A stretch of 64,000 nt of DNA from Tachypleus tridentatus. Its lineage: Eukaryota; Arthropoda; Merostomata; Xiphosura; Limulidae. Below the pieces are notes generated by a model. That model was not told where the DNA came from and made no database searches. It worked only from the letters and a program-made list of their open reading frames with translations. Positions 2,896 to 59,062 of this stretch are shown here, piece by piece. Within the stretch, counting starts at the first letter, position 1, and each line of letters starts with the position of its first letter. The translations under genes and the position numbers were made by a program. The stretch is taken from assembly GCF_004210375.1 (NCBI RefSeq), contig NC_134829.1, positions 53,870,107-53,934,106 of the forward strand. The letters are read 5' to 3'.

Positions 2896-2901
2896 CACGT
2901 G
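2896..2901. promoter_or_regulatory. E-box CACGTG upstream of gene 1
   Basis: A palindromic CACGTG begins exactly 85 bp upstream of the gene 1 TATA box. Gene 2 has the same hexamer at the same 85-bp spacing. In arthropods such sites can bind bHLH factors; a role here is inference. Confidence 0.4.
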
Positions 2902-2980
2902 AACGTCATTGTGCATTGTGAATGGCTGAACTTTATACGCGAAATGATTCCTTTTCCACACATCACTGCCCCTGTCTGAG

Positions 2981-2988
2981 TATAAATA
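2981..2988 (+). promoter_or_regulatory. TATA box of gene 1
   Basis: TATAAATA lies 66 bp before the proposed ATG at 3047. Transcription would start around 3010-3020, giving a short 5' UTR. The same box and spacing recur at gene 2 (65 bp) and, slightly closer, at the decayed third copy (54 bp). Confidence 0.7.
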
Positions 2989-3046
2989 TGAGTGTAAGCG
3001 AGGGGATAATCCAATTGGCAAGTGACTCACAAGCTGAACTTTGAAT

Positions 3047-4966
3047 ATGATGAAGGGAAAGGTGAGATAATTTATATCCGCTTTTCAGCTCAGATTACTT
3101 TAAGATTATGTTAATACATTGAAATAGTTAAATCTGTAATCTCATTAGAATAATTGGAGCAAATATGGGAGAAAAAAAAACACATTATATTAATTCGAAT
3201 TTTAGTCGATAAGTTTGTGTAAACCCAAAAGATGTTTTCAGCTATTTGTTTGGTTTTACTACATATTTATATATATATAGATTGGCAGAATGGAAAGTGG
3301 ATTGGAAATTCTAAGATTAACGGTTTGTGTTCAATTCATGCAAAAACATAATCCCCGCAATAGTTTTGTCGGGACCGACTAAAAGTGATTAGTTTTGGTA
3401 ATGGGAACGAAAACCTTGTGAAATACCTAAAACCGACAGTGTTGATGTCCAAATTCAATACCTAGTGTCTTGTATACGGCAATAATCTAATTACTGAGAG
3501 ATTGACAGTGTTGATGTCCAAATTTAATACCTATTGTCTTGTATACGGCAATAATCTAATCACTGAGAGATTGACAGTGTTGATGTCCAAATTCAATATC
3601 TAGTGTCTTGTATACGGCAATAATCTAATTACTGAGAGATTGACAGTGTTGATGTCCAAATTCAATACCTAGTGTCTTGTATACGGCAATAATCTAATTA
3701 CTGAGAGATTGACAGTGTTGATGTCCGAATTCAATACCTAGTGTCTTGTATACGGCAATAATCTAATAACTGAGAGATTGAAATATCTTGGTTACTAGAC
3801 ATTAATAGTTCATTTACACTAATAATCCTTGCAAGGCTTTGGTTTTAGTGTGGTTTGGTTTTGAATTTCGCGCAAAGCTACACAAGGGCTATTATTTACG
3901 CTAGCCGTCCCTAATTTAGTATTATAAGGCAGGGAAGGCAGCTAGTCATCACCACCCAAAGCCAACTCTTGGGCTACTATTTTACTACGAATAGTGGGAT
4001 TGACCGTACCATTATAACGCCTCCACGGCTGAAAGGGCGAGCATCTTTGGTGTGATACAGATTCGAACCCGAGACGCTCAGATAATGAGTCTAATGTCTT
4101 AACCACCTGGCCATGTCTAGCCTTTTAAGGGTATATCCATCAAAATTCTTTTTCCAAATAAAATTTGTAACTCGTTTTGTTGTTATAAATCCATTTCCCA
4201 TTTCGTGTCTTAGGAAAAATAAAAACCAAAATAGCATCTTATTTTTGTCATTTATCAGCATAACGACCCTGTGTAATAATCACCTGGCCATTCCGGGCCC
4301 CTTGCAAGGCACTTTTGGTATATTAGAACCAATTGCATTCTCTGCTTTATTTTTAAAACAGCATGGTGTTTAGATATGGAAATGAATAGTACTTTAGATT
4401 TTGTTTTAATATGATTTTTTTTTTTACATAACTGAGATTTTTATTTTTATTTTGGCTAAACTACTTTGTGATCTAAGTATTATTTTTACTTTGACTAAAC
4501 TACTTTGTGATCTAAGTATTATTTTACTTTGACTAAACTACTTTGTGATCTAAGTATTATTTTTACTTCATTCTTGAAGCTGCTCTTGATTGTTTGTTTT
4601 ACTGTGTTGGGCCTGGCTGTGGGAGCCGAGGATGAAACGGAAGATCTGAAGGCTGAGGCTACTGGTTATTACGGTGGCGGTGGCTACGGGGGCGGTGGCT
4701 ATGGTGGCGGTGGCGGTGGCTACGGTGGCGGTGCCTTAGGAGGTTACGGTGGCGGTGCCTTAGGAGGTTACGGTGGCGGTGGCTTAGGAGGTTACGGTGG
4801 CGGAGTAATCCAACTTCTTGCTATTCCAATAAGTGTTGGCGGCTATGGAGGCGGCTATGGTGGCGGCTTTGGTGGCGGCTATGGTGGCGGCTTTGGTACT
4901 GGTGGTGGACTGGGACTTGGAGGTATAAGATATGGCAGAGGAAAATACGGTTGGTGGTGGGATTAA
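3047..4966 (+). CDS. Glycine-rich secreted protein, cuticle-type (gene 1, two coding exons)
   Basis: Spliced gene model: exon 1 coding 3047-3061 (ATGATGAAGGGAAAG, then donor gtgaga); intron 3062-4579; exon 2 4580-4966, acceptor ttcttgaag. Both junctions are phase 0. The product is about 133 aa. MMKGK joins a hydrophobic stretch (LLLIVCFTVLGLAVGA), making a convincing signal peptide with cleavage near residue 21. An acidic linker with KAEA follows, then a Gly/Tyr domain of GGYGGG units. The motif VIQLLAIPIS interrupts it at roughly residues 79-88, then more Gly-Tyr/Phe repeats and a Trp-rich C-terminus. Composition fits arthropod cuticle or other extracellular glycine-rich proteins; the exact role is unknown. 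Paralogous to gene 2. The intron holds a minisatellite, a SINE and a triplicated acceptor region. Exon 2 is certain as an open Gly-rich frame; exon 1 is inferred from promoter spacing, splice sites and the match to gene 2. Confidence 0.8.
3437..3781. repeat. 69-bp minisatellite, 5 copies, in gene 1 intron
   Basis: Five near-identical 69-bp units starting at cagtgttgatgtcc (3437, 3506, 3575, 3644, 3713). It lies wholly inside the predicted first intron of gene 1. Confidence 0.95.
3851..4122 (-). mobile_element. SINE-1 copy in gene 1 intron
   Basis: Reverse-oriented full-length copy of the ~275-bp SINE. It runs from the gaatttcgcgcaaagcta tail, through the conserved body (gccaactcttgggctac), to the tRNA-like head (B-box complement gattcgaaccc). 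A second partial head lies at 4281-4299. An 11-bp palindromic direct repeat (ccttgcaaggc, 3827-3837 and 4300-4310) brackets both. Confidence 0.9.
4451..4570. repeat. ~40-bp triplication at the gene 1 splice-acceptor region
   Basis: Three copies of a ~40-bp unit with gactaaactactttgtgat and a T-rich stretch, ending next to the proposed acceptor at 4579. Each unit carries a branch-point-like ctaaac and a pyrimidine-rich run, so the acceptor control region itself seems to have been copied. Confidence 0.85.
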
Positions 4967-5761
4967 AGGTTGGTTTAAATTACTATTTTTGTTTTTCTCA
5001 GGTTACAGTGTTCCAATAGCTTATTCCAAGTAATAGTAGCATTTGAAACCTTTGAACAAATTGTATACAAAACTTAAAAGGAAGACTGTTAGTAAATGCG
5101 TTCAAACGAAAAACTTCACGCATTTGATTTACGTAACAATCATTTCCACTCTACGATAAAATAATAAGATAATTCTGTGTTTGTATGGCAATCGTACGTG
5201 ACACGCTTTTGTTATTTATATTATTATTACTATACATATATGTATCTTCCAGGACAGGTGCCATTTTCTCTATACAGATGTGATGGAACTTCTACGCCTT
5301 TTCAGAACCGTGATTATAAATATAACCTTTCCAGATTATGATAGTTTCTAGACTACTGTATATGAAACATTTGTAAAAAAAATGCATAAATAAACATGGC
5401 TTATGTCTCAATCTACTTGACGTGTGGCTTCTGATATCATTTTAACACTTTCCAAGAATAACAGGAAATACACCAGAAATATTTATCTTCAAACAACACT
5501 CGTTGAACATCTGAAAAATAAAAATAAAGGTTCAAATATATCGCAACAACAACAATAGTAAGAAGGTTGGTAGAACAATATTTATGTACTTACATCTCAA
5601 ACAATGTGACTAATGCCTTTTCTAAACGTATTTATGTAGTGTTAAAGAAGTAACAATTATATACAGTGATATAATACTGCATTGTTTATCTGCATTTATA
5701 ATTAAAAGAAATATCCATAAAACTAAACGAAAGTACCATTTGTATATATTTGATATATATA
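4967..5761. other. 3' flank of gene 1 with candidate poly(A) signal
   Basis: Non-coding AT-rich DNA after the gene 1 stop. The first convincing AATAAA is at 5389-5394, which would give a 3' UTR of about 430-450 bases. Nothing else is recognised up to the Tc1 terminus. Confidence 0.5.
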
Positions 5762-6719
5762 TACACTGCTGGCCAACATCTTAAGGCCAATGAACATAAA
5801 GAAAAAATATGCAATTAAGTGGTTGAATGGAGTTTCGAAAGATGAAAATAAGAAAAGGGAAAATAAAAATAAAAGTTTGTTAGCATTTAATAGGGAAAAT
5901 GTGAACACTATGAAATTAGCCTAAATACTAACTGGTTAAAAGTTTAAGACCGTACCAAAGAGAAGTCCTAAACAGGGTAAGAAATACCCAACAAGAGGTC
6001 TCAGTAGTGAGTTGCACGACCGTCATTGCGAATAACTTTAAACATTCGCTTTGGCATAGTCGACATAAACGTTTGCAGAATGCTGGCTGGAATGTTATTC
6101 CAAATGGTGAAGATGGCTTCACGAAGATCATGAACTGTTTGGAATTGACGTCCATTTCTGTAGACTTCCCTTGCCATTCACCCCCAAACATTTTCAATGG
6201 GGTTCAGTTCGGGCGAACACGTTGGATGGTCCAAAAGAATCACGTTATTCGCCATGAAAAGTTCTTTGTCCTGCGGGCATTGTGGATTGCAGCATTGTCC
6301 TGGTGAAAGATCCAGTAATTTCCACACAAGCAAGGGCCTTCAGTCAATAAGGATGCTCTCTCCAACATACCAATGTCGCCAGCTGCTGATTGACGCCCCT
6401 TTATAACCTGAAGCTCCATTGTTCCATGGAAAAAGAAAACACTCCATATCATGATGGAATCCCCTCCATTGTGTCGTGTAGAAAATGTCTCCGGTGGGAT
6501 ATCCTTATTGTGCCAGTAACGTTGAAAGCCATCTGGATCATCCTGGTTTAATTTTTTCTCATCAGAGAACAAAACCTTTGTCCTCTTTTCTACGTCCCAT
6601 GTAAAGTGCTTCTCATCAAAGTTTAACCGAGCTGTTTCGTGGTGTGGCCTTTGAAGACGTTTACGGTTTTTTAAAGCCTTTCTTTCGTAGACACCGTCTT
6701 GTTGTTCTTGAGCTGCATT

Positions 6720-7102
6720 ATATATATGCAAAAACGGCTCGTTTGGGTTGAGAAAATATTTTACATAGAAGAGCGAACAACGTTTCGACCTTCTTCGGTC
6801 ATCGTCAGGTTCACAAAGGAAGAGGTAACTGACCGGAAGCTGACTACATGTTTGAAAGGGGTTGTGTAATTGAGTGTCGGAATTTAGAGGGCGGTATTAG
6901 TTGTTTTAATATATAATTTTATTTATTTTATTATATTAATATAAGTATAAAGGCGTTCCTTTATATTGGTTTATTTTGGGTTTAAGTTGTTGTATAAGTA
7001 AGGCTTCTTTAATTTTGCGTTTGTTTATGTTTGTTTCTTTATTTAGTATTTGAGTGTTTTCTATGGTTATGTTGTGTTTATTTGACTTGCAGTGTTCGAA
7101 AA
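6720..7102 (-). repeat. Left inverted terminal repeat of PLE-1
   Basis: Reverse complement of 8596-8978 with very few differences. It includes a backward copy of the last part of the endonuclease coding region and the gtttcgacc-containing terminal motif. Confidence 0.93.
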
Positions 7103-8762
7103 ACAAGACAAAACCTAAAACAAGACAAAAACATAAAAATTCTAAAAGCAGATAAAGGTAACGCTATAGTCATAATGAACACGGATGAATACATCCAAAA
7201 AAATGAAGAGCATCCTATCAGACACGAACAAATTTAAACCAATACACACAAATCCAACAAAGACACACGAGATGCAACTGAACAAATTGCTACTACAAAT
7301 GAAAAAAGCCAACACAATTTCACAAACACTTTATTCCTACCTACGTAAAACCGACTCACGCACACCGCAAATATACGGCATCCCCAAACCTCATAAACCA
7401 GATTGTCCATTACGACCAATAATGTCCACATATGAATCGTTTAATTACAATCTTGGTAAATACATAGCATGGGCATTCTCCAAATATGTAACATCAGCCA
7501 GCTCATTCATTAAAGACTCTTTTAATTTCAAGTCTAATCTAAATCAACTTAATCATAAAGCCTTAATGGCCAGTTTCGATGTTATATCCCTCTTCACAGA
7601 AGTTCCAACCACTGAAGCCTGCAAGATAGCCTTAGAACTCTATATCCGAGACCCTAACCCAACTATAGACATTCCCAGTAACCAGTTAGCAACCCTCATA
7701 GAATTCACCACGATAAAGACAAACTTCATGTTCAACAACCAAAACTATATACAAACAAATGGCCTAAGCATGGGCAACCCAGTATCACCAGTTCTAGCCA
7801 ATATTTTTATGACACAAGTTGAAACACAAGCAATTAACACAGCATTACATCCACCACTATACTGGTACAGATATGTAGATGACACGGTTGCGGGATTCAA
7901 ATCTACAGAACGCATACTTAATTTTTTTAATCACATTAACTCTATACATCCCAACATTAACTTCACATGTTGAAAGCAATCAAATATCATTTCTTAACCT
8001 CAAAATTACAAGAACCGACACACAATTCAAAACAGAAATCCACCGAAAAATCACCCATACTGGACTATACATTCCTTGGGACTCAGCACATGAAACAAAA
8101 CAAAAACTCAACATACTAAGAAACCAAATAAACACAGCCATAAAACTATGCTCACCAGATAAAATTAATGATGAATAAGACAAAATAAAACAATACTTCA
8201 TCAACATCAATAAGTTTCCTCCACAAACCGTAGAAACATTATACGCACACACCTAGACAGAAAGCAAAATCAACCAACTAAAGTAAATATATCTCACGAA
8301 TCAAAAAATCACGAAACCATATACTGCTGTATACCATATATTCCTGACATCAGCAAACAAATAACCAACATTTGGCAAAAACTAGTAACAAAATATGACA
8401 TTCCAGTTAATACCAAATTTATTCAAAAACCAGGAACAAAACTGAGGTCTATACTATGTAAAAACTACACTGACAAACACCACACCAACATTATTTATAA
8501 AATACAATGTGATAACTGCCACGACTTCTATATTGGAGAAACAAGTAGAAAACTGGAAACCAGATTCAAAGAACATAAAAAGTCACCTTCACACGTTTTC
8601 GAACACTGCAAGTCAAATAAACACAACATAACCATAGAAAACACTCAAATACTAAATAAAGAAACAAACATAAACAAACGCAAAATTAAAGAAGCCTTAC
8701 TTATACAACAACTTAAACCCAAAATAAACCAATATAAAGGAACGCCTTTATACTTATATTAA
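7103..8762 (+). pseudogene. Penelope-like reverse transcriptase / GIY-YIG endonuclease, frameshifted
   Basis: Reading along the + strand in several frames gives one Penelope polyprotein lacking its extreme N-terminus. ILKADKGNAIVIM is followed by a shift in an A-run near 7200. The reverse transcriptase core comes next: GIPKPHKP near 7380, FDVISLFTEVP (motif A) near 7580, GLSMGNPVSPVLAN (motif B) near 7770 and YRYVDDTV (motif C, catalytic Asp pair) near 7870. After further shifts near 7900-7975 and 8180-8300, a C-terminal GIY-YIG endonuclease domain (YKIQC...DFYIGETSRKLETRFKEH) runs to a stop at 8762. At least three frame changes and a stop at 8176-8178 inactivate it. Function in the intact family: target-primed reverse transcription with GIY-YIG cleavage. 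Confidence 0.93.
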
Positions 8763-8978
8763 TATAATAAAATAAATAAAATTATATATTAAAACAACTA
8801 ATACCGCCCTCTAAATTCCGACACTCAATTACACAACCCCTTTCAAACATGTAGTCAGCTTCCGGTCAGTTACCTCTTCCTTTGTGAACCTGACGATGAC
8901 CGAAGAAGGTCGAAACGTTGTTCGCTCTTCTATGTAAAATATTTTCTCAACCCAAACGAGCCGTTTTTGCATATATAT
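8596..8978 (+). repeat. Right inverted terminal repeat of PLE-1
   Basis: Pairs with 6720-7102. It contains the final codons of the endonuclease domain, about 200 bases of 3' non-coding sequence and the terminal motif discussed separately. Confidence 0.93.
8890..8914 (+). other. Hammerhead-ribozyme-like core in PLE-1 terminal repeat
   Basis: CTGACGA, then a 4-bp stem GACC/GGTC with a 6-base loop, then GAA(A). The order resembles a hammerhead catalytic core (CUGANGA, stem II, GAAA). Penelope-like elements are known to carry hammerheads in their terminal repeats. There is an extra T between the core and stem II, and stems I and III are not convincing, so activity is doubtful. An inverted copy is at 6784-6808, and the motif recurs in PLE-2 (about 46990 and 47764). 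Confidence 0.35.
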
Positions 8979-17589: not shown

Positions 17590-18130
17590 GTGTATGTACA
17601 GGTGCTTTTATCTAGCTATGTTTATATGTTTACACGCAGTACTGTTATCTAGCTATGTTTATATGTTTGCACACACTGTTATCTAGCTATGTTTATATGT
17701 TCACACACAGTACTGTTATCTAGCTATATTTATATATGTATACTCAGGTAATATTATGATGCTATTTTTATATGTGTATATGCACGGGAATTGGTATCTA
17801 GCTATCTTTATATGTGTATACACAGGTACTGTTATCTATCTACGTTTATATGTGTATACACAGGTACTGTTATCTATCTACGTTTATATGTGTATACAGA
17901 GGTACTGTTTTCTATCAACGTTTATATGTGTATACAGAGGTACTGTTATCCTGCTATGTTTATATGTGTACACACAGGTACTGTTATCTAGCTATGTTTA
18001 TACGTGTATAGAAACATACTGTTATCTTGCTATGTTGACATATGTGTATACACACGTACTGTTATCTTGCTGTATATACACACATACTGTTATCCTGCTA
18101 TGTATACACACGTACTGTTATTCTGCTATC
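17590..18130. repeat. 38-bp minisatellite, about 14 variable copies
   Basis: Units of about 38 bp (ggtactgttatct plus agctatgtttatatgtgtat), with length variation at both ends. Overlapping open frames across it are repeat artefacts. It directly abuts the next array. Confidence 0.93.
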
Positions 18131-18134
18131 ATTT

Positions 18135-19985
18135 TCATGTATGGGTATTAATGTCCCATACATCATGTTTATGTATGGGTATTAATGTCCCATACATCAT
18201 GTTCATGTAAGGGTATTAATGTCCCATACATCATGTTCATGTATGGGTATTAATGTCTCATACATCATGTTCATGTATGGGTATTAATGTCCCATACATC
18301 ATGTTCATGTATGGGTATTAATGTCCCATACATCATGTTCATGTATGGATATTAATGTCCCATAGATCATGTTCATGTATGGATATTAATGTCCCATAGA
18401 TCATGTTCATGTATGGATATTAATGTCTCATACATCATGTTCATGTAAGGGTATTAATGTCTCATACATCATGTTCATGTAAGGGTATTAATGTCTCATA
18501 CATCATGTTCATGTAAGGGTATTAATGTCTCATACATCATGTTCATGTAAGGGTATTAATGTCCCATACATCATGTTCATGTATGGGTATTAATGTCTCA
18601 TACATCATGTTCATGTAAGGGTATTAATGTCTCATACATCATGTTCATGTAAGGGTATTAATGTCTCATAGATCATGTTCATGTATAGATATTAATGTCC
18701 CATACATCATGTTCATGTATGGATATTAATGTCTCATACATCATGTTCATGTATGGGTATTAATGTCCCATACATCATGTTCATGTAAGGGTATTAATGT
18801 CTCATACATCATGTTCATGTAAGGGTATTAATGTCTCATACATCATGTTCATGTAAGGGTATTAATGTCTCATACATCATGTTCATGTAAGGGTATTAAT
18901 GTCTCATACATCATGTTCATGTAAGGGTATTAATGTCTCATACATCATGTTCATGTAAGGGTATTAATGTCTCATACATCATGTTCATGTAAGGGTATTA
19001 ATGTTCCATACATCACGTTCATGTAAGGGTATTAATGTCTCATACATCATGTTCATGTAAGGGTATTAATGTCTCATACATCATGTTCATGTAAGGGTAT
19101 TAATGTCTCATAGATCATGTTCATGTATAGGTATTAATGTCCCATACATCATGTTCATGTATGGATATTAATGTCTCATACATCATGTTCATGTATGGGT
19201 ATTAATGTCCCATACATCATGTTCATATAAGGGTATTAATGTCTCATACATCATGTTCATGTAAGGGTATTAATGTCTCATACATCATGTTCATGTAAGG
19301 GTATTAATGTCCCATACATCATGTTCATGTAAGGGTATTAATGTCTCATACATCATGTTCATGTAAGGGTATTAATGTCTCATACATCATGTTCATGTAA
19401 GGGTATTAATGTCTCATACATCATGTTCATGTAAGGGTATTAATGTCCCATACATCATGTTCATGTAAGGGTATTAATGTCTCATACATCATGTTCATGT
19501 AAGGGTATTAATGTCTCATACATAATGTTCATGTATGGGTATTAATGTCTCATACATCATGTTCATGTAAGGGTATTAATGTCTCATACATCATGTTCAT
19601 GTATGGGTATTAATGTCTCATACATCATGTTCATGTAAGGGTATTAATGTCTCATACATCATGTTCATGTAAGGGTATTAATGTCTCATACATCATGTTC
19701 ATGTAAGGGTATTAATGTCCCATACATCATGTTCATGTATGGATATTAATGTCTCATACATCATGTTCATGTAAGGGTATTAATGTCCCATACATCATGT
19801 TCATGTAAGGGTATTAATGTCCCATACATCATGTTCATGTATGGGTATTAATGTCTCATACATCATGTTCATGTAAGGGTATTAATGTCCCATACATCAT
19901 GTTCATGTATGGGTATTAATGTCTCATACATCATGTTCATGTAAGGGTATTAATGTCTCATACAGCATGTTCATGTATAGGTAGT
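18135..19985. repeat. 34-bp minisatellite, about 54 copies, hairpin-forming unit
   Basis: Units of 34 bp containing gtatgggtattaatgtccca. The atgtatggg and cccatacat halves are inverted copies around tattaatgt, so each strand can form a short hairpin. Many units carry the variant pair gtaaggg/ctcatac, which breaks this pairing. Confidence 0.97.
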
Positions 19986-26342: not shown

Positions 26343-26568
26343 CGGAGAAATTAGAATTAGTGCAAATAACAACAGTTCAGTCTCTCTCTCTCTTTATATC
26401 CCACAAGTACTATAAAATATTTATAAATCTGATAATGATAAGTAGAAATCGATATGTACATAACCTAGCCAGCTATGGTAACATCGAAAGTTTTAGTGTT
26501 ACATAGAGTATTGAAACAAGAAAATTAAAACTACAACTGAAACTTTCTACATCACTATAGTTAGACAG

Positions 26569-28790
26569 GTTATATATCGATCCACATCACTACAGGTTAT
26601 ATAACGATCCACATAACTACAGGTTATATAACAATCCACATCACTACAGGTTATATAACGATCCACATCACTACAGGTTATATAACGATCCACATCACTA
26701 CAGGTTATATAATGATCCACATCACTACAGGTTATATAACGACCCACATCACTACAGGTTATATAACGATCCACATCACTACAGGTTATATAATGATCCA
26801 CATCACTACAGGTTATATAACGATCCACATCACTACAGGTTATATAACGATCCACATCACTACAGGTTATATAACGATCCACATCACTACAGTTTATATA
26901 ACGACCCACATCACTACAGGTTATATAACGATCCACATCACTACAGGTTATATAACGATCCACATCACTACAGGTTATATAACGATCCACATCACTACAG
27001 GTTATATATCGATCCACATCACTACAGGTTATATAACGATCCACATCACTACAGTTTATATAACAATCCACATCACGACAGGTTATATAACGATCCACAT
27101 CACTACAGGTTGTATAACGATCCACATCACTACAGGTTATATAACGATCCACATCACTACAGGTTATATAACGATCCACATCACTACAGGTTATATAACG
27201 ATCCACATCCCTACAGGTTATATAACGATCCACATCACTACAGGTTATATAACGATCCACATCACTACAGGTTATATATCGATCCACATCACTACAGGTT
27301 ATATAACGATCCACATCACTACAGGTTATATAACGATCCACATCACTACAGGTTATATGACGATCCACATCACTACAGGTTATATAACGATCCACATCAC
27401 TACAGTTTATATAATGATCCACATCACTACAGGTTATATAATGATCCACATCACTACAGGTTATATAACAATCCACATCACTACAGGTTATATATCGATC
27501 CACATCACTACAGGTTATATAACGATCCACATCACTACAGGTTATATAACGATCCACATCCCTACAGGTTATATAATGATCCACATCACTACAGGTTATA
27601 TAACGATTCACATCACTACAGGTTATATAACGATCCACATCACTACAGGTTATATAACGATCCACATCACTACAGTTTATATAACGATCCACATCACTAC
27701 AGGTTATATATCGATCCACATCACTACAGGTTATATATCGATCCACATCACTACAGGTTATATAACGATCCACATCACTACAGGTTATATATCGATCCAC
27801 ATCACTACAGGTTATATATCGATCCACATCACTACAGGTTATATAACGATCCACATCACTACAGGTTATATATCGATCCACATCACTACAGGTTATATAT
27901 CGATCCACATCACTACAGGTTATATAATGATCCACATCACTACAGGTTATATGACGATCCACATCACTACAGTTTATATAACGATCCACATCACTACAGG
28001 TTATATAACGATCCACATCACTACAGGTTATATAACGACCCACATCACTACAGGTTATATAACGATCCACATCCCTACAGGTTATATAACGATCCACATC
28101 ACTACAGGTTATATAATGATCCACATCACTACAGGTTATATAACGATCCACATCACTACAGGTTATATAACGATCCACATCCCTACAGGTTATATAACGA
28201 TCCACATCACTACAGTTTATATAACGATCCACATCACTACAGGTTATATATCGATCCACATCACTACAGGTTATATAACGACCCACATCACTACAGGTTA
28301 TATAACGATCCACATCCCTACAGGTTATATAACGATCCACATCACTACAGGTTATATAATGATCCACATCACTACAGGTTATATAACGATCCACATCACT
28401 ACAGGTTATATAACGATCCACATCACTACAGGTTATATATCGATCCACATCACTACAGGTTATATAACGATCCACATCCCTACAGGTTATATAACGATCC
28501 ACATCACTACAGGTTATATAACGATCCACATCACTACAGGTTATATAACAATCCACATCACTACAGGTTATATAACGATCCACATCACTACAGGTTATAA
28601 AACGATCCACACCACTACAGGTTATATAACGATCCACATCACTACAGTTTATATAACGATCCACATCACTACAGGTTATATAACGATCCACATCACTACA
28701 GGTTATATAACGATCCACATCACTACAGGTTATATAACAATCCACATCACTACAGGTTATATAACAATCCACATCACTACAGGTTATATA
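26569..28790. repeat. 27-bp minisatellite, about 82 copies
   Basis: Unit ggttatataacgatccacat plus cactaca. Frequent variants are atatcg, ataatg, aggtt/agttt and catccc. Variant order recurs with a 9-unit (243-bp) shift near 28030 and 28270, showing block duplication. Open frames of 715 codons (+) and 741 codons (-), plus a 496-codon frame, arise because 27 is a multiple of three. Confidence 0.98.
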
Positions 28791-28904
28791 CCTATTTCGA
28801 TTTTATTACGCATCAAAATCACTGTAAAGCTATCTCCAGATCTAATTATGACAAAGTAGCGCTTTATAAACAGCTCACACAAACGGTTGTACGTAAACAC
28901 TTAA

Positions 28905-30290
28905 CAGATTATTGAGACACCAGTCAATACAATAAACGACCGTTTATTGAGCTGTATATAAACATTTAACAGATTATTGAGACACCAGTCAATACAATAA
29001 ACGACCGTTTATTGAGTGGTATATAAACATTTAACAGATTATTGAGACACCAGTCAATACAATAAACGACCGTTTATTGAGCTGTGTATAAACACTTAAC
29101 AGATTATTGATACACCAGTCAATACAATAAACGACCGTTTATTGAGCTGTATATAAACATTTAACAGATTATTGAGACACCAGTCAATACAATAAACGAC
29201 CGTTTATTGAGCTGTATATAAACATTTAACAGATTATTGAGACACCAGTCAATACAATAAACGACCGTTTATTGAGCTGTATATAAACACTTAACAGATT
29301 ATTGAGACACCAGTCAATACAATAAACGACCGTTTATTGAGCTGTATATAAACATTTAACAGATTATTGAGACACCAGTCAATACAATAAACGACCGTTT
29401 ATTGAGCTGTATATAAACATTTAACAGATTATTGAGACACCAGTCAATACAATAAACGACCGTTTATTGAGCTGTATATAAACATTTAACAGATTATTGA
29501 GACACCAGTCAATACAATAAACGACCGTTTATTGAGCTGTATATAAACATTTAACAGATTATTGAGACACCAGTCAATACAATAAACGACCGTTTATTGA
29601 GCTGTATATAAACATTTAACAGATTATTGAGACACCAGTCAATACAATAAACGACCGTTTATTGAGCTGTATATAAACATTTAACAGATTATTGAGACAC
29701 CAGTCAATACAATAAACGACCGTTTATTGAGCTGTATATAAACATTTAACAGATTATTGAGACACCAGTCAATACAATAAACGACCGTTTATTGAGCTGT
29801 ATATAAACATTTAACAGATTATTGAGACACCAGTCAATACAATAAACGACCGTTTATTGAGCTGTATATAAACATTTAACAGATTATTGAGACACCAGTC
29901 AATACAATAAACGACCGTTTATTGAGCTGTATATAAACATTTAACAGATTATTGAGACACCAGTCAATACAATAAACGACCGTTTATTGAGCTGTATATA
30001 AACATTTAACAGATTATTGAGACACCAGTCAATACAATAAACGACCGTTTATTGAGCTGTATATAAACATTTAACAGATTATTGAGACACCAGTCAATAC
30101 AATAAACGACCGTTTATTGAGCTGTATATAAACATTTAACAGATTATTGAGACACCAGTCAATACAATAAACGACCGTTTATTGAGCTGTATATAAACAT
30201 TTAACAGATTATTGAGACACCAGTCAATACAATAAACGACCGTTTATTGAGTGGTATATAAACACTTAACAGATTATTGAGGAATCAGTC
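28905..30290. repeat. 66-bp minisatellite, about 21 copies, each with a 9-bp hairpin
   Basis: Unit acagattattgagacaccag, tcaatacaataaacgaccgt, ttattgagctgtatataaac, atttaa. Inside, caataaacg-ac-cgtttattg is a perfect 9-bp inverted repeat with a 2-base centre. Central copies are essentially identical; variants lie mainly at the array edges. Confidence 0.98.
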
Positions 30291-31621
30291 AATATATAAA
30301 ATGATCGCTTACTGGGTTATATTTTATAGGTTTGTTTGAATACCTAGAGATTATTACTTTTATTACGTTTTCTCTTGAACCAATTATAGAAAAATACTGA
30401 GCCACTATAACCACTTTAGGATTTAACACATATCGAAAACCTAAATTCTCAAACCTTTCTAAAACTGAGAATTATTTAGGTGTGTTTTCTTTGTTGAATT
30501 AAATCTATAATAACTAATACCAAAACAAAACCGAGAAACTAAATACAATAATTCAAATATAAACAGTCCAGCGAAACACGAATGTGTTTTAAAGTGAAAA
30601 TATTGCATCACAACAAAACTGCACCCGAAAAGTGAACTGAAAAGGGATAACAGTTATTTCCAAACACATTGATTAAAATAATGTGCAATTTTTTTAAAAA
30701 AATGGGCTTAGAATCATGGAGTTATTTGTATAAAAAACCAAACGACATTAGTTTGTAGGATCAAGCTGATAATAGATTGAAGTTCTTGAAGTTATCAGGT
30801 TTAAGGTAAAATTGTGTAAGAAGCGTGACTATTGGTCGACAAAATAGATTTCGAAGTTTTTGAATTTGAAAAAGAAGAATTGAAATGCAATTTGTAAAAT
30901 GTCTTTCATAGCACAGCGTAACGTATTTTGTTCTTACAAAAAATTGTCATAGAAATTACTTTGTTTGTAGCAATAGAATAGATTTGTTTTTTTTTCAGTC
31001 ATGTTTGACTTTTCAACACCTTGGTTATTTACACAATAAAAAAAAAATTACTGGTGCGAAAAACAGTAGAGGAAGAAATTTATATAGATGCTTCAGAATG
31101 TTTATCTGACTATTTATTTAATTTAGGTTTACACCATAGAAGTGTTTTTACGCCCTTCAACCGTTAATTTCATTCCTTAGTGTTATAGAAGACAAACATT
31201 TTATGTGCGTCAAGTGTTATCTTTATGCTGTAATTGTTGCTTTATTACAACCTTTGTTAAAGAATCGTAGAGGGAAAAGAATCATCCAGGTAAACAAGGT
31301 TAAATGTGTGGGGATTTTACTTATTTAACTAAGTATATCACTCCTTATTAACGCCCACCATCCACGCCCCTCAGGTTTCATACGCTAAAGACTGTGCTCT
31401 GAACTCCGTAAAGAGCAGAACACGCATAGTCCATTGCGTACTTTGCAAACAAAGCTCTTAAACTTAACTGTTGGTGCCAGCATTGATAAGGAAACATTAG
31501 CCTTTGTTACTTCAAGTAATTATCCTCTTAATGATTGAAGGCTGATTTTTCACTGTCACTTTAGGAACTTATGATTCGAAGGATCTGTGTAAAACCTCAT
31601 TACTACCAATAAAATAGTATA
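30291..31621. other. AT-rich intergenic DNA
   Basis: About 1.3 kb with nothing recognised. Confidence 0.5.
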
Positions 31622-33923: not shown

Positions 33924-33931
33924 TATAAATA
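33924..33931 (+). promoter_or_regulatory. TATA box of gene 2
   Basis: TATAAATA 65 bp before the ATG at 33989. An initiator-like ctcaagtcatt lies about 30 bp downstream of it. Confidence 0.75.
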
Positions 33932-33988: not shown

Positions 33989-36677
33989 ATGATCACCAAG
34001 GTAAGTGCACGTTTATATATTTTTGAAGACCAGAACAAAAATTGAAGGACAGTCTTGTAACCACGTATCGTCCAAGAATGAATAATAACTAAACGTGAGC
34101 TGGAACAAACTGTTCTTACAGTTAAGTTTCTTTTCGCTTTCCCTTTGAAACCTTAGAATGTTAATACTGTTGATCTTAAATATTATAATACAACTATAAC
34201 AACGTAAGAATGTTTTTTGAAGTTAGCAGCTAGGATAATTAGGGATACTGACAGGAATACACCTTCGGCTAGGATAATTAGGGATACTGACAGGAATACA
34301 CCTTCGGCTAGGATAATTAGGGATACTGACAGGAATACACCTTCGGCTAGGATAATTAGGGATACTGACAGGAATACACCTTCGGCTAGGATAATTAGGG
34401 ATACTGACAGGAATATACACCTTCGGCTACGATAATTAGGGATACTGACAGGAATACACCTTCGGCTAGGATAATTAGGGATATTGACAGGAATACACCT
34501 TCGGCTAGGATAATTAGGGATACTGACAGGAATACACCTTCGCACGATACATCCATGAGATTCCTCTTGTCGGACCCTAAAGTAGGATTTAACTGTCACC
34601 CTTATATTGCATACTCATGTCAAATACGAGCCTTTGTCCTCACAATTCTGGCAAACTATCGAGCAGGTCACGCCTAATCCCTTCTTTTCGCGGATAGTTA
34701 ATGTTTGAAACACCGAGTCTTGTTCATGGCTCCTTTCTGCCCAAACAAAATAGTAAACAAACAACCAACAACCTACTTATGAACTATCCATTGTTTACAC
34801 AAATAATACAACATAATCTTAAGGATCTGCAGTCTGAGCACGTTAAGTAGTTATTCACACCCGACTTTGATGAGGTAACTTACAAAGAAGAGAAACCAGC
34901 TTGAAGTCAAAATGATGGCTGCTGTGGGTATTAAAACTTTAATTAAAATAAACTAGAGTACAATCAGGAATAACAAATGGTAACTCCAAACAAATACAGT
35001 CGGTATACACCAAGATTTCACTATTTCGGCTTAACCTGTCCAATGTTTCGGCATTAGAACTTAACAAGTCCAACGTTTTGTCGCTGCAATTTCACAAATC
35101 CAACGTTTCGCGATTGTAGTTTAATTAGTTCGACGTTTCATCGTTAGTGTTTAACCAGTATTAAATTTCTTCATAACACTAACTCAATCCAATGTTATAT
35201 TATAACGATTACTCTGTATAACGTTTCGTTATTACAGCTGAAACGAGATTAAATTCCTAGTTTCACTGTAACTGAAGTAAACACCAGTGTTTAACTTTAA
35301 AGAAATCCTACTGGTAAAACTCAGATCTTAGTTCACTGTTGTTGTTTTTTTTGGTCTGTAATTACGCACAAAACTACACAATGGGCAATCTGCTTTGCCC
35401 ATCATGGGTATCGAAATCCAGTTTCTAGCCTTGTAACTATGTAGATATACCGCTGTGCCACTAGTGAGCGCGTAAGTATTAGTAAACGATTTTGTTTTCC
35501 TGAATTGCCGACTATGTTTTTACTTCCTTGGCATGGCTACGTCTTTACGGCGCTTGACTGCAATCTGTGGGTCGCAGGTTCGAATCCCGTCCCACGAAAC
35601 ATGCTTTCCCTTTCAGTGGTGGGGAATTCTAACGTAACGGTAAATCTCACTATTTATTGGTAAAAGAGTAGCCCCAGAGTTGGGGGTGGGTGGTGATGAA
35701 TAACTGACCTTTCTCTACGCTTTCACTAGCAAGTTAGGGAAGGCTAGCTCATATAGCCCTCGTGTAGGCTCATATAGCCTTTGCGCGAAATTGAACAATA
35801 CAAAAAAAAGCATACTTTGTCAGTACTTGCTGTGATCTATAATCTTTATTTTTGGCATGAAATTTCATAAATTGCACTGTAATAAGACATAAAAATGTAA
35901 TTTTGTACTAATTTAAAGTCAGAAGTTACATTTAGATTTAATATTTAAACACTGCGCCACCTTCTCAGGATTACCAACTTCAGATAAACTTTTTTTCTCT
36001 TCCTATGCTATTTGTTAATTATATTTCAATAAAACAGATAAACGTATCTGGCAACAACTCTTGTTACTAAGTCTATATTCTTACGAGTATGTTCTTCCTA
36101 TGCTTTTCAGATTCCCTTCGTGCTCTTTGGCATGTTTTTTCTGGTGATGGCTTCTAAAGAACGGTCTCAAACCTCCAAAACTGCGGATCTGAAGGCTGAG
36201 GCATCAGGGTATGGTGGACTTAGTGGTGGATATGATGGAGTTAGTGGTGGATATGGTGGACTTAGTGGTGGATATGGAGGAATAAGAGGTGGAATTGGTG
36301 GTGGATTCGGTGGAATTGGAGGTGGTGGATATGGTGGACTTGGTCGAGGATTCGGCGGCATTGGTAGTGGTGGATATGGTGGCTTCGGTAGAGGCTTTGG
36401 TGGAATTGGTGGTGGTGGCTTCGGTAGAGGCTTTGGTGGAATTGGTGGTGGTGGCTTCGGTAGAGGCTTTGGTGGAATTGGTGGTGGTGGATTCGGTGGA
36501 GTTGGTCAAGGATTTGGTGGGTATAGAGGCTTCAATATTATACATCTACTGGCCATTCCTGTCGCTCTCGATGGAAGAGGAATTGGAGTGGGAGGTTTTG
36601 GTGGCCCTTTTTATGATTGGAGATTTGGTAGCGGACCTGTTAGAGGACTTGGTGGAACCAAAGGAGGCAGCTGGTAG
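33989..36677 (+). CDS. Glycine-rich secreted protein, cuticle-type (gene 2, two coding exons)
   Basis: Exon 1 coding is ATGATCACCAAG (33989-34000) with a strong donor gtaagt. The 2.1-kb intron (34001-36110) ends in tatgcttttcag. Exon 2 is 36111-36677, and phase 0 is kept. The product is about 192 aa. MITK joins IPFVLFGMFFLVMAS as signal peptide. A basic/polar linker follows (KERSQTSKTADLKAEASGY), then Gly-rich repeats. These are first GGYGGLS units, then three copies of a GRGFGGIGGGGF unit. The motif NIIHLLAIPVALDGRG lies near residues 144-159, and the protein ends Gly-Gly-Ser-Trp. The signal peptide, KAEA and LLAIP motifs, exon layout and promoter match gene 1. Likely an extracellular cuticle or matrix component; there is no chitin-binding R&R domain. 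The intron carries a 39-bp minisatellite and two SINEs. Antisense and alternative-frame open frames over exon 2 are composition artefacts. Confidence 0.88.
34230..34543. repeat. 39-bp minisatellite, 8 copies, in gene 2 intron
   Basis: Unit ctaggataattagggatact plus gacaggaatacaccttcgg. One unit has a 2-base insertion. The arrays of open frames seen on both strands (up to 138 codons) are repeat artefacts. Confidence 0.96.
34544..35019. other. Intronic DNA of gene 2
   Basis: No feature recognised. Confidence 0.5.
35020..35245. repeat. Degenerate ~36-bp tandem repeat in gene 2 intron
   Basis: Recurring ccaacgtttcg / ccaatgtttcgg / cgacgtttcatcg, each followed by a variant of agtttaaccag, about six times. 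An old array. Confidence 0.7.
35345..35472 (-). mobile_element. SINE-2 copy in gene 2 intron
   Basis: Reverse CAA-tailed subtype: taattacgcacaaaactaca ... gggtatcgaaatccagtttc, ending with ataccgctgtgccactagt. Confidence 0.85.
35526..35805 (+). mobile_element. SINE-1 copy in gene 2 intron
   Basis: Plus copy, diverged: cttggcatggctacgtcttt, B box caggttcgaatccc. It has a short internal duplication near its end (ctcatatagcc twice). Confidence 0.88.
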
Positions 36678-48261: not shown

Positions 48262-50412
48262 ATTATTCAGGTGCTCATTATTCAGGTGATCTCTATTTAG
48301 ATGATCTTTATTCAGATGATCATTATTCAGGTGCTCATTATTTAGGTGATCTTTATTCAGATGATCATTATTCAGGTGCTCATTATTCAGGTGATCATTA
48401 TTAAGGTGATCTTTATTCAGGTGATCTTTATTCAGGTGATCATTATTCAGGTGATCATTATTCAGGTGCTCATTATTAAGGTACTCTTTATTCAGATGCT
48501 CTTTATTCAGGTGATCATTACTCAGGTGCTCATTATTCAGGTGATCTTTATTCAGGTGCTCATTATTCAGGTGCTCATTATTAAGGTGCTCATTATTCAG
48601 GTGATCTTTATTCAGGTGCTCATTATTCAGGTGCTCATTATTCAGGTGATCTTTATTCAGGTGATCTTTATTCAGGTGCTCATTATTCAGGTGCTCATTA
48701 TTCAGATGCTCTTTATTCAGGTGATCTTTATTCAGGTGCTCATTATTCAGGTGCTCATTATTCAGATGCTCTTTATTCAGGTGCTCGTTATTCAGGTGAT
48801 CTTTATTCAGGTGCTCGTTATTCAGGTGCTCATTATTCAGGTGATCTTTATTCAGGTGCTCATTATTCAGGTGATCTTTATTCAGGTGCTCATTATTCAG
48901 ATGCTCTTTATTCAGGTGCTCGTTATTCAGGTGATCTTTATTCAGGTGCTCATTATTCAGGTGATCTTTATTCAGGTGCTCGTTATTCAGGTGCTCATTA
49001 TTCAGGTGCTCGTTATTCAGGTGATCTTTATTCAGGTGATCATTACTCAGGTGCTCATTATTCAGGTGATCTTTATTCAGGTGCTCATTATTCAGGTGCT
49101 CTTTATTCAGGTGCTCATTATTCAGGTGATCTTTATTCAGGTGCTCATTATTAAGGTGCTCATTATTCAGGTGATCTTTATTCAGATGCTCGTTATTCAG
49201 ATGTTCGTTATTCAGGTGCTCATTATTCAGATGCTCTTTATTCAGGTGCTCGTTATTCAGGTGATCTTTATTCAGGTGCTCATTATTCAGGTGATCTTTA
49301 TTCAGGTGCTCGTTATTCAGGTGCTCATTATTCAGGTGCTCGTTATTCAGGTGATCTTTATTCAGGTGATCATTACTCAGGTGCTCATTATTCAGGTGAT
49401 CTTTATTCAGGTGCTCATTATTCAGGTGCTCTTTATTCAGGTGCTCATTATTCAGGTGATCTTTATTCAGGTGCTCATTATTAAGGTGCTCATTATTCAG
49501 GTGATCTTTATTCAGATGCTCGTTATTCAGATGTTCGTTATTCAGGTGCTCATTATTCAGGTGCTCGTTATTCAGGTGATCTTTATTCAGGTGCTCATTA
49601 TTCAGGTGCTCATTATTCAGGTGCTCATTATTCAGGTGATCTTTATTCAGGTGCTCATTATTCAGATGCTCTTTATTCAGGTGCTCGTTATTCAGGTGAT
49701 CTTTATTCAGGTGCTCATTATTCAGGTGATCTTTATTCAGGTGCTCGTTATTCAGGTGCTCATTATTCAGGTGATCTTTATTCAGGTGATCATTATTCAG
49801 GTGCTCATTATTCAGGTGCTCTTTATTCAGGTGCTCATTATTCAGGTGATCTTTATTCAGGTGCTCATTATTAAGGTGCTCATTATTCAGGTGATCTTTA
49901 TTCAGATGCTCGTTATTCAGATGTTCGTTATTCAGGTGCTCATTATTCAGGTGCTCATTATTCAGGTGCTCGTTATTCAGGTGATCTTTATTCAGGTGCT
50001 CATTATTCAGGTGCTCATTATTCAGGTGCTCGTTATTCAGGTGATCTTTATTCAGGTGCTCATTATTCAGGTGCTCATTATTCAGGTGCTCGTTATTCAG
50101 GTGATCTTTATTCAGATGCTCGTTATTCAGATGTTCGTTATTCAGGTGCTCATTATTCAGGTGCTCATTATTCAGGTGCTCGTTATTCAGGTGATCTTTA
50201 TTCAGGTGCTCATTATTCAGGTGCTCATTATTCAGGTGCTCATTATTCAGGTGATCTTTATTCAGGTGATCTTTATTCAGGTGATCTCTATTTAGATGAT
50301 CTTTATTCAGGTGCTCATTATTCAGGTGATCATTATTCAGGTGCTCTTTATTAAGGTGCTCTTTATTCAGGTGATCTTTATTCAGGTGCTCATTATTAAG
50401 GTGTTCTTTATC
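48262..50412. repeat. 15-bp minisatellite, about 143 copies with higher-order structure
   Basis: Unit ttattcaggtgctca with variants gat/gct, ctt/cat/cgt and att/atc. The order of variants from about 48961 recurs shifted by 330 bp (22 units) from about 49291, so block duplication has occurred. Unit length 15 keeps several frames open (784 codons minus, 649 codons plus). The minus frame translates to five-residue NNEHL / NKDHL repeats. I judge these non-coding. Confidence 0.98.
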
Positions 50413-53761: not shown

Positions 53762-53858
53762 GTGTGTGTGTGTGTTTTCTTATAGCAAAGTCACAGGGAA
53801 TCGATTCCCTGATTTTATCGTAAATCTGTAAATTTACAGCTATACTAGCGGGAGACTC
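53762..53858 (-). mobile_element. SINE-2 copy, shortened
   Basis: gtgttttcttatagcaaagt, then gggaatcgattccctgattt and tttacagctatactagcggg. The stretch between tail and B box is deleted. Confidence 0.82.
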
Positions 53859-55267: not shown

Positions 55268-55460
55268 GTTTTTGTTTGTTTGTTTTTTAATTTCATGCAA
55301 AGCTAGACGAGGGCTGTTTATGCTAGCCGTTTCTATTTAGCAGTGTTAGACTAGAAGGAAGGCAGCTAGTCATCACCACCCACCTCCAACTCTTGGACTA
55401 CTTCATTACCAATGAATAGTGATATTAACTATCGCATTATAACGCCCTCACAGCTTAAAC
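55268..55460 (-). mobile_element. SINE-1 copy lacking the tRNA head
   Basis: Tail and body (gcaaagctagacgagggctg ... gccctcacagcttaaacatc) are present. The head with A and B boxes is missing, as in a 5' truncation. Confidence 0.87.
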
Positions 55461-55556
55461 ATCAAGGTGTGGAATTTATGGAAGAAGTTGTTCAATTATT
55501 CTGAATTATCACGAATACTTCTGCTGTTTGTTTTTCTTTCTAACACTTTTCATTAG

Positions 55557-55985
55557 GCTTCACTCCAATGGCACAGCGGCCGGCCGGCATATCTGCTGAC
55601 TTACAACGCTAACTTTTCATTAGGCTTCACTCCAATGGCACAGCGGCATGTCTGCTGACTTACAACGCTAACTTTTCATTAGGCTTCACTCCAATGGAAC
55701 AGCGGCATGTCTGCTGACTTACAACGCTAACTTTTCATTAGGCTTCACTCCAATGGCACAGCGGCATGTCTGCTGACTTACAACGCTAACTTTTCATTAG
55801 GCTTCACTCCAATGGCACAGCGGCATGTCTGCTGACTTACAACGCTAACTTTTCATTAGGCTTCACTCCAATGGCACAGCGGCATGTCTGCTGACTTACA
55901 ACGCTAAACATCAAATTTATATGCACTTGACGGGCAGAGCACAGATAGCCCATTGTATAACTTTATGCTTAATTACTCATAAATA
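55557..55985 (+). mobile_element. SINE-2 copy whose head has become a 59-bp tandem repeat
   Basis: Six copies of a 59-bp unit (cttttcattaggcttcactc, caatggcacagcggcatgtc, tgctgacttacaacgctaa) occupy 55557-55910. The last continues into the normal SINE-2 body (gggcagagcacagatagccc) and tail. The unit holds the A-box part of the SINE plus about 15 bases of flanking DNA. The first copy has an extra ggccggc. Confidence 0.93.
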
Positions 55986-56905
55986 AACAAAAAACGTTTT
56001 ATTAGTATTACATATAAATGGATTAAGTTGAGTCGAAAATGAGTTCCGTTTCTTGAGGACTTGAGATACTGATTTTATTATTCGAGAACTCTCTGATCGA
56101 TACTGATAATACAAATTGGATCGCAAAAGAAGGTTTCACCTTCTTCAAAATCCTAATTTAGTTAGTGGACTAGATCCCCTCGTGGCAACAGTGTAACGTC
56201 ACGAAGACTTGGCATGTTTTCAAACATTCATCTGGTGTTTAGAATATACCAGATAGACGTTACTACTGTTTGTGCTCCAGAATCAACATTTTCAAGTCAA
56301 ACTTTCTAATATTAATTTGCAGACGGAAAGAAAAACCTGAAATGAATATTCGAACAAAGTAGTTATACAGAAATCTAAAAGCTCCTGTGGAATTATAAAC
56401 AACACTGTCCTATTTTAAGGCTTAGCTCCGCTCAACTACGCACTTTTCTTTTCAAACTATAAAAAGTAGGTATTAACAAGTCATGTGTGTGGAATTCACT
56501 TCCTGTTTTATATGAAACTAGGCTTAACCGTCTACAAGGAAGTAAGGGGTGCACAGTTTAACTCACATTTCAAGATTTAAAAAAACACACCTCTTACAGA
56601 AACACTGGTTGTCTTCTTCAAAGCAAACTTCTGTTATGCTTTTATTTGTATCTACAATACCAGTTATTTATATTGTCTTACAGCTAATCCAATATAACGT
56701 AATGAAAACTTTAAAAAACAAACTTTAATTATAGATTTGAGCATTATTAAAACTGGTCAATCAGCTCTTGTTTTATGTCATCAAAATATTTTGATTATAA
56801 AAAGTGCCACAATGACGCGCAAAATTTCACTGAATATTACAGTTTTATAGTATGATGAAAGTATATGTGTGTGTTATCTCATTTCTCTTATTCTTTTCAG
56901 TTAAG
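55986..56905. other. Intergenic DNA upstream of the third family copy
   Basis: No gene or repeat recognised. No CACGTG at the 85-bp spacing seen for genes 1 and 2. Confidence 0.5.
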
Positions 56906-56913
56906 TATAAATA
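56906..56913 (+). promoter_or_regulatory. TATA box of the decayed third copy
   Basis: TATAAATA 54 bp before an ATGAAG that is followed by a donor-like gtatcg. An initiator-like atcaggt is about 28 bp downstream. Confidence 0.5.
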
Positions 56914-57004
56914 CAACTTACTCCTAATGAATTATCAGGTTATATATAACTGAAGGATCATGAAGGTATCGTCAATGAAACTTACATGTTTCTTCTATTT
57001 TGAT

Positions 57005-58310
57005 AGTTTTGTATATTGCTAGTTTTAGACATTATTAGTTCTGTATACGTCCCGGCATGGCCAAGCGTGTTAAAGCCTGCGACTCGTAATCCGAGGGTTG
57101 CGGGTTCGCATCCCAGTCGCGCCAAACATGCTCGCCCTTTCAGCCGTGGGGGCGTTGTAATGTGACGGTCACAATCCCACTATTCGTTGGTAAAAGAGTA
57201 GCTCAAGAGTTGGCGGTGGGTGGTGATGACTAGCTGCCTTCCATGTCTTACACTGCTGAATTAGGGACGGCTAGCACAGATAGCCCTCGAGTAGCTTTGT
57301 GTGTAATTCAAAACAAACAAAAAAACAAGTTCTGTATATAGTTAGTTTTTCTACATTTTCAGTTCTGTATACTCTTAGTTTTGATATATTGTTAGTTCTG
57401 TATATTGTTAGTTTTCTGCATTGTTAGTTCTATATACTGTTAATTTTTATATTGTTAGTTTTGATATATTGCTAGTTCTACATGTCATTAGTTTTGTATA
57501 CTGTTGGTTTTCTACATTGTTAGTTCTGTATACTGTTAGTTTTGGTATTATTAGTTCTGTATATTATTAGTTTGTATATTGTTGGTTTTGATATAATATT
57601 AATTCAGTATGCTATTAGTTTTGATATGTTGTTATTTCTGTATATTTTAATTTGTAATTATTGTTAGTTTTCATATATTATTAGTTCTGTATATTGTTAG
57701 TTTAGATATATTATTAGTTCTGTATATTGTTAGTTTTGATATATTGTTAATTCTATATATTCTTAGTTTAGATATATTATTAGTTCTGTATATTGTTAGA
57801 TTTGATATATTGTTAGTTCTGTATATTGTTTGTCTTGATATATTGTTGGTTCAGTATATTATTATTTTGTATATTGTTGGTATAGATATAACATTAATTC
57901 AGTATGCTATTAGTTTTGATATGTTGTTATGTCTGTATATTTTAGTTTGTAATTATTGTTAGTTTTGATATATTATTAATTCTGTATATTGTTAGTTTAG
58001 ATGTATTATTAGTTCTGTATATTATTGGTTTTGAATTTTGTCAGTTTTGATATATTATTAATTTTGATATATTGTTAATTCTGTATATTGTTTGTTTTGA
58101 TACATTGTTAGTTTTGAATTATTGTTAGTTTTGATAGTTCTGTGTATTATTTGTTTGTATATTGTTAGTTCTGTATATTATTAGTTTGTATATTGTTGGT
58201 ATAGATATAACATTAATTCATTATGCTATTAATTTTGATATGTTGTTATTTCTGTATATTTTAGTTTGTAATTTTTTAGTTCTACATATTATTAGTTTTG
58301 TAAAGCTTGT
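57005..58310. repeat. Irregular AT-rich tandem repeat in the third-copy intron
   Basis: Many copies of ttagttctgtatattg and ttagttttgatatattg in loose alternation, with units of about 16-32 bp. A SINE-1 sits inside it at 57048. The open frame at 57744-57962 is an artefact. Confidence 0.9.
57048..57327 (+). mobile_element. SINE-1 copy inserted in the AT-rich array
   Basis: Near-consensus full-length copy. The exact 11-bp duplication agttctgtata is at 57037-57047 and 57328-57338, itself part of the array unit. Confidence 0.95.
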
Positions 58311-58510
58311 AAGCTTGTAACATTATCTCATAAATTCTCCCAACTAACTGTGGAGTATTTTATGAAAATAAAGATTTATTTTGTTATTTTGTTGATGTAA
58401 GTAAATAAGTAAACGTCATTCAATTAATATTTCAGAAATAGATGTTACTTCCTACAAAACAACTGTTAGCTACTGGAGAGATAAAGTAGAAGAATCTAAA
58501 CTGTATAAGA

Positions 58511-58570
58511 GAATTTGTGAATATATCCTAATACGTTAGAGAATTTGTGAATATATCCTAATACGTTGAC
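58511..58570. repeat. 30-bp duplication
   Basis: agagaatttgtgaatatatc plus ctaatacgtt occurs twice in tandem, upstream of the pseudogene second exon. Confidence 0.9.
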
Positions 58571-59062
58571 AAACGCCCGTTAACAATCACAGGTTCTCCA
58601 CATTTTTTTTTTGTATTTAAATTGTAGTTTTTTTCGAACAACTGTGTTGCTATGTCATTATATCAAATCTGTTGTGTGAAACTGCTGTATTGTAGATTCG
58701 AACAGCGGAAGCTATTTTTCGACTCATATGTGGTAAGGATAGAAACCGTATTCAAGCTGAATGTACAGAATACGAGCGACGATATTCTGTTGGAAGACTT
58801 TGAAATAGTAAAGAAGGCTTAGCAAGGAGTACCAGATAATTAGAAATAAGTACAGTGTTGATGGTAGACTTGGAGACTGGACAAGAGAGTTTGGAGATGG
58901 GAAAAAGTTACGCTCCTTGCTATTCTCGTGAAATTTGTATCAGGAGATGGAAGTAATACTAGAGCACTTAATGGTGACATTTATGGTGCTGGGAGACTTA
59001 AAGAAGGTGGTGGTGGTGGAGCACTTGATGGTAGAGCTCAAGGTAAATTAAAGATGTGGTAG

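Follow-up and report, generated by a model that had tools for sequence, protein, structure and literature searches.

A clustered family of glycine-rich, apparently secreted proteins with a cuticle-type gene plan in the horseshoe crab Tachypleus tridentatus

Introduction

The closest described counterparts of the genes analyzed here include the glycine-rich cuticular proteins of insects (the CPG/GRP group, for example in Bombyx), which are likewise glycine-rich structural components of the cuticle and carry GGY-type repeats (PMC11772090). Comparable in gene structure are the CPR proteins, which carry the Rebers-Riddiford (R&R) chitin-binding domain (PF00379) and are encoded by clustered gene copies (PMC2259329), while acanthoscurrins, ctenidins and serrulin share with our genes the chelicerate host, the high glycine content and the signal peptide. 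Here, we investigate two genes, A and B, residing in a 64,000-nucleotide stretch of contig 5 of the horseshoe crab Tachypleus tridentatus (NC_134829.1, positions 53,870,107–53,934,106). This stretch is referred to as the window, and features are given in its coordinates. The original prediction, made from the letters of the window, had grouped A and B with a third, decayed copy into a family of glycine-rich secreted proteins and had looked to chelicerates for relatives, which agrees with the horseshoe crab origin of the DNA. We find that A and B belong to a family of at least 20 members on contig 5, and we weigh what its products may be used for.

Results

Reading of the DNA confirmed A and B as genuine genes of the family, with the plan and boundaries that had been assigned to them. 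In gene A (3047–4966, plus strand, as are all features of A and B), a TATAAATA box at 2981–2988 lies 66 bp before the ATG. The first exon comprises five codons (MMKGK, 3047–3061) and ends at the donor GTGAGA, and a phase-0 intron (3062–4579) leads to a second exon (4580–4966) that encodes, in this order, a signal core, an acidic linker, the block DLKAEATGY (4643–4669), glycine repeats, the block LLAIP (4814–4828), further glycine repeats and a terminal KYGWWWD before the stop. Gene B (33989–36677) follows the same layout, with the TATAAATA box at 33924–33931 (65 bp before the ATG), a four-codon first exon (MITK, 33989–34000, donor GTAAGT), a phase-0 intron (34001–36110) and a second exon (36111–36677) in which the signal core is followed by a charged linker, DLKAEASGY (36186–36212), glycine repeats, LLAIP (36546–36560), glycine repeats and a terminal GGSW. 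The spliced frames are free of stops and encode 133 (A) and 192 (B) amino acids. With glycine contents of 51% (A) and 47% (B), the two proteins exceed the threshold of at least 20% used for arthropod glycine-rich proteins (PMC11772090); their net charges are −3 and +7, respectively, and neither contains cysteine past the signal region.

We compared these features with chance expectation. The TATAAATA box by itself is frequent in the AT-rich window, with 12 occurrences on the plus and 12 on the minus strand. When both strands were searched for a TATA box combined with a first exon of the form M..K and a GTRNR donor, A and B were the only matches, while 20 shuffled windows contained two in total (mean 0.1). 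For the protein blocks, profiles were built from pieces located outside the window (11 for the start block around DLKAEATGY, 12 for the LLAIP block), and 10 shuffled windows served as control. The start-block profile assigned 41.0 bits to A and 38.5 bits to B (shuffled maximum 11.7), and the LLAIP profile 36.3 and 18.6 bits (shuffled maximum 11.0). These margins should be read with the caveat that low-complexity sequence can outscore shuffles, as a tandem-repeat open reading frame on the minus strand of the B intron reached 16.1 bits with the start-block profile. With the composition correction of HMMER switched on, the start block retained 33.4 bits in B and 26.0 bits in A, compared with at most 9.3 bits in shuffles. 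A kept 20.1 bits for its LLAIP block, while that of B fell outside the top 12 matches of the window search. In both genes, the two blocks follow each other in the same order within a single exon after the signal core, and profiles made without A and B agree on this. A promoter profile derived from 13 members ranked A first (17.4 bits) and the possible third copy C, described below, fourth (11.4 bits, via 56890–56916 only), and B was absent among the 14 matches listed. Given this ranking, we rejected the promoter by itself as a diagnostic feature.

Searching beyond the window for the combination of KAEA and LLAIP, as the original prediction had advised, yielded further members on contig 5 and one, X, on contig 10. 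The family was collected from the 2.17 Gb assembly by DNA searches that used the second exons of A, B and a further member, D, as queries, together with flanking stretches, and by reading the fetched places; as such a search scores the best candidates only, the family count is a lower bound. A genome-wide protein search that used B as query returned B alone. Contig-5 sequences were counted as members if an LLAIP-like block accompanied the N-terminal block, and glycine-rich matches lacking the start block (such as L018–L022, L063 and L066–L071) were excluded. On these terms, contig 5 carries at least 20 members, 17 at 52.87–53.95 Mb and three at 56.30–56.32 Mb. The family is thus glycine-rich, apparently secreted and clustered on the chromosome, as had been proposed, but it is far from having three members. 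Similarly, the common strand holds within the window but not along contig 5, where 16 of the 20 members lie on the plus and four on the minus strand, among the latter E and F, which lie shortly beyond the end of the window.

The LLAIP-like block varies between members, reading LALLTIP in E and LISIP in H1–H3. X (51.27 Mb on contig 10) has both blocks. On contig 13, at about 149.92–149.94 Mb, the family members L056–L058 combine DLKSEATGY with a separate reading piece containing AIPVAV, AIPAAV or AIPVSV, followed by LLAVPLQL and a YKWWD end, a layout that suggests a three-exon form. At three further places on this contig (L055, L059, L061), a block reading LAVP or LALP is combined with an end of the WWD type, and no start block was found in the 1.7–1.8 kb fetched for them. 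Conversely, I, J, K, L062 (recognized by eye), L064 and L065 on contigs 7, 10 and 12 carry a related start block, with no LLAIP block found in the fetched sequence. A third block, missing from the features originally listed, is an aromatic C-terminus, WWD or WW, present in eight of the 20 contig-5 members. A and H1 end in WWWD, D and S1–S3 in IWWD, G and G2 in KWW, and F in YWRD; B, E, H2, H3, P1, P2, Q1, Q2 and R1–R3 have other termini with neither WWD nor WW. On contig 13, L053–L058 and L061 end in IWWD or KWWD. Near the end, the frame in H2, H3, Q1 and R2 departs from that in H1, Q2 and R1.

Two side observations concern relatives and look-alikes of the family. In gene E (L014:791–1336, minus strand), which lies 0.8–1.3 kb past the window end, a stop follows directly after LALLTIP, and a separate glycine-rich reading piece lies nearby at 316–591 of L014; E may be a broken member. 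A different glycine-rich family, of the form KTGVTLLLL...VSVRTHG...VPIFAVIGSSRH (one copy with VPIFAIIGSSRH), is found at L018–L020 and L022, with a spacing of about 10 kb on contig 10 and one copy on contig 13.

The sequences outside the window largely repeat the gene plan of A and B. An AG acceptor in phase 0 directly precedes the signal core in 23 of 24 family sequences, the boundary in J lying one codon past a CAG. A first exon that ends in lysine before GT, 54–68 bp after the TATA box, was located in X and, among the 18 members that contig 5 carries outside the window, in 14; D and S1–S3 offered several pattern matches, from which the one with this spacing was chosen. No such exon was found for H3, P1, R2 and R3 on contig 5, nor for I, J and K, and the respective regions of H3 and H1 match apart from an A run that differs in length by one base. 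The identical plan had been noted as a common trait of the three predicted genes, but comparison with CPR genes shows that it is no signature of the family. Four of six CPR genes examined, picked from 150 scored matches, share the tiny first exon ending in lysine (MLK in L045, L048 and L050, MITK in L049), with the TATA box 73–102 bp before the ATG, a phase-0 intron and a signal core opening the next exon; the search for a first exon in L046 and L047 gave nothing convincing. The plan is also on record for insects. Among Anopheles CPR genes with introns, 86% are interrupted in the signal-peptide region, with first exons of 3–36 nt, and TATA plus the initiator element (INR) occurs in 93% (PMC2259329). 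In Drosophila, a phase-0 intron at position 5 was seen in 88 genes encoding signal peptides, comprising 38 cuticle genes, 46 of unknown function and four others (PMC1626468). As read from the DNA, A and B conform to this cuticle-type plan, having a TATA box and a phase-0 intron in the first codons before the signal core. We therefore rejected the shared plan as a marker of the DLKAEATGY/LLAIP family, since its presence in CPR genes makes it indicative of a secreted and quite possibly cuticle-type protein rather than of membership in one family.

Based on gene plan, composition and repeats, A and B are probably glycine-rich structural proteins of the cuticle or of a similar secreted layer. The cuticle role is suggested by the plan shared with four of six CPR genes together with the dominance of cuticle proteins among the annotated Drosophila genes of this structure. 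In such a scenario, a TATA promoter would drive each gene, and the tiny first exon would be spliced in phase 0 to the second exon with its signal-peptide core. After removal of the signal peptide, the remaining protein would be released outside the cell, consisting of a charged and often acidic linker, DLKAEATGYGG, flexible GGY/GGF/GGL repeats, the hydrophobic LLAIPIS and, in some members, WWD. The disordered glycine- and tyrosine-rich chains could then pack into the exoskeleton or a similar layer, with the hydrophobic and aromatic blocks serving as contact points. Several findings weigh against this proposal. Neither a chitin-binding nor any other known domain was found, A and B being without match in Pfam (up to E 1) and NCBIfam, and B had no match in the PDB. 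From 299 CPR candidates, 150 were scored and none lies near the contig-5 cluster. The pattern by which the CPR genes were compared is looser than that of the family, allowing the TATA box up to 102 bp before the ATG, and carries no chance rate. Moreover, the plan is no proof of cuticle, as the signal core of a coagulogen gene likewise resides in an exon that starts after AG and lacks an ATG (its first exon was not found within 1 kb).

The cationic character of B raises another point against a cuticle role, as glycine-rich antimicrobial peptides can be cationic as well. The family could accordingly represent haemocyte peptides like acanthoscurrins, ctenidins and serrulin, stored and released upon infection. 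The high glycine content, the signal core, the chelicerate host, with such peptides occurring in spiders and a scorpion (PMC6784228), and the net charge of +7 in both B and X would fit this idea. The charge, however, varies within the family, from −3 to +8 in 16 contig-5 members (H2, H3, Q1 and R2 left aside), with D at −3, like A, and several others near 0. The termini do not agree, as the last residue of acanthoscurrins and serrulin is an amidated lysine and ctenidins are likewise C-terminally amidated, in contrast to the WWWD end of A and the GGSW end of B, and the decapeptide given as the mark of ctenidins is absent from A and B (PMC6784228). The internal hydrophobic LLAIP block is a further difference from the arachnid peptides. 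In addition, ctenidins come from intronless genes. We thus regard an antimicrobial function as unlikely. Slightly less likely still, in our estimation, is a use in adhesive, egg-coat, tube or gland secretions of silk- or cement-like type: GGY repeats are also a feature of silks and of glycine-rich proteins from tick saliva (PMC11772090), but cuticle proteins dominate the annotated Drosophila genes with the same intron position (PMC1626468).

The original prediction had included a decayed third gene in the window, here termed C (56960–59062, plus strand). Its front part is in place, with a TATAAATA box (56906–56913) 54 bp before ATGAAG and a possible first exon MK (56960–56965), followed by the weak donor GTATCG. 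A looser promoter/exon pattern, picked after C had been seen, matches A, B and C only and none of 20 shuffles. For the possible decayed second exon (58695–59062), which is unconfirmed, the evidence is mixed. QAEC (58753) occupies the position of KAEA and LLAIL (58913) that of LLAIP, 160 bp apart and in different frames, and an open piece ends in KMW and a stop. At the protein level, the outside-window profiles miss C, placing it within background at rank 225 with the start block (1.6 bits) and rank 13 with the LLAIP block (5.5 bits). At the DNA level, when exon 2 of A or of B is compared with 410 segments of the window, those over C come out on top in both cases, but the similarity in five alignments to members falls in 58981–59044 and consists mostly of GGT-type codons. 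Averaged over eight members, C scores 28.75, above all 200 background segments (at most 25.0), while by maximum one of the 200 scores higher (40 vs 36). The score of 58695–59062 against B was reached by 6 of 500 shuffles and that against A by 38 of 500, and with only the start region of each gene compared, C did no better than shuffles (308 of 500 for A and 146 of 500 for B). Among 24 family sequences, the scores with S1 and F were reached by none of 100 shuffles each, that with K by 52 of 100. We therefore rejected C as a proven member on the shuffle, profile and alignment results. C may still be a genuine member in decay, its frame and the bulk of its glycine repeats having been lost, a possibility that we rate as somewhat below even.

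To see how the family members relate, we compared their start regions. A is closest to H1–H3 (0.60 of the self score), which are located 0.2–0.8 Mb upstream of it, and B to R1–R3 (0.43), rather than A and B to each other. Over exon 2 and flank, R1 and R3 (53.07 and 53.65 Mb) are 98.7% identical across 2.5 kb, and H1 and H3 (53.11 and 53.69 Mb) 98.8% identical across 3.0 kb, as expected of a copied segment and equally of two haplotypes retained in the assembly. The ratio of nonsynonymous to synonymous substitution rates (dN/dS) was computed for 13 pairs and defined for 12, all of them below 1 (0 to 0.84), indicating that the coding sequence is under constraint; values for the pairs with shifted ends (H1/H2, H1/H3, R1/R2 and Q1/Q2) are probably inflated. 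A yielded 0.11 against H1 and 0.09 against H2, with synonymous divergence near saturation, and R1 and R3 show no coding difference in the compared frame.

It had been suggested that the family spread through the growth of introns and spacers, which our data bear out in part. Repeats do occupy the introns: dispersed repeat sequence covers 300 bp in A (3834–4133), 472 bp in B (with repeats at 35343–35462 and 35509–35812) and 302 bp in the presumed intron of C, and minisatellite arrays are found in all three, those of A at 3435–3781 and 4441–4568 and that of B at 34229–34542. The dispersed repeat sequence, however, also matches 20–22 other half-kilobase bins of the window, and the introns of 15 other members measure 293–2614 bp. 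Repeat-driven intron growth is therefore visible but region-wide and provides no mechanism of family spread, and whole-segment copying is visible as well.

Apart from the family, the window contains very large minisatellites, among others at 26565–28790, 48262–50411, 18128–19977 and 28894–30294, with a 27-mer repeated up to 82 times; the arrays at 26565 and 48262 have long open stretches in frames of both strands. At 7179–8762 on the plus strand, a reverse transcriptase domain (PF00078) is followed by a GIY-YIG domain (PF01541), which we take to be the make-up of a Penelope-like element. A 59-residue stretch (YRPLNSDTQL...) flanks this element as an inverted repeat, at 6720–6896 on the minus and 8802–8978 on the plus strand. 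Elsewhere in the genome, Coagulin, the clotting protein family that marks horseshoe crabs, was matched (PF02035) at 19 places, including contig 11 at about 9.0 and 42.9 Mb and contig 7 at 19.2–20.5 and 29.1 Mb, and in none of 14 control genomes. The separate matches suggest several coagulogen-like genes.

Discussion

A and B resemble CPR genes in their plan and differ from them in lacking the R&R domain. The DLKAEATGY, LLAIP and WWD blocks are not known from the insect CPG/GRP group. None of six family motif strings was found in the open-licence literature, and titles and opening abstract lines of open-licence articles on horseshoe crab glycine-rich and cuticle proteins do not name such a family. 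Iijima et al. 2005 (FEBS J 272:4774; cited in PMC2956697) reportedly dealt with horseshoe crab cuticular proteins, under a title promising a comprehensive sequence analysis. The DLKAEATGY/LLAIP family may be among those proteins and, in this case, would already have been described. The more far-reaching view that the family represents an undescribed, still expanding and lineage-specific modular exoskeleton material, in which DLKAEATGY, LLAIPIS and WWD would act as assembly contacts between free-running glycine repeats, is put forward tentatively, and we consider it rather doubtful.

Our analysis extends the set of likely structural proteins of a horseshoe crab by a large multigene family, for which gene models and recurring blocks are given. 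It also shows the cuticle-type plan in glycine-rich chelicerate genes outside the CPR family, which should aid annotation, as first exons of two to five codons are easily missed.

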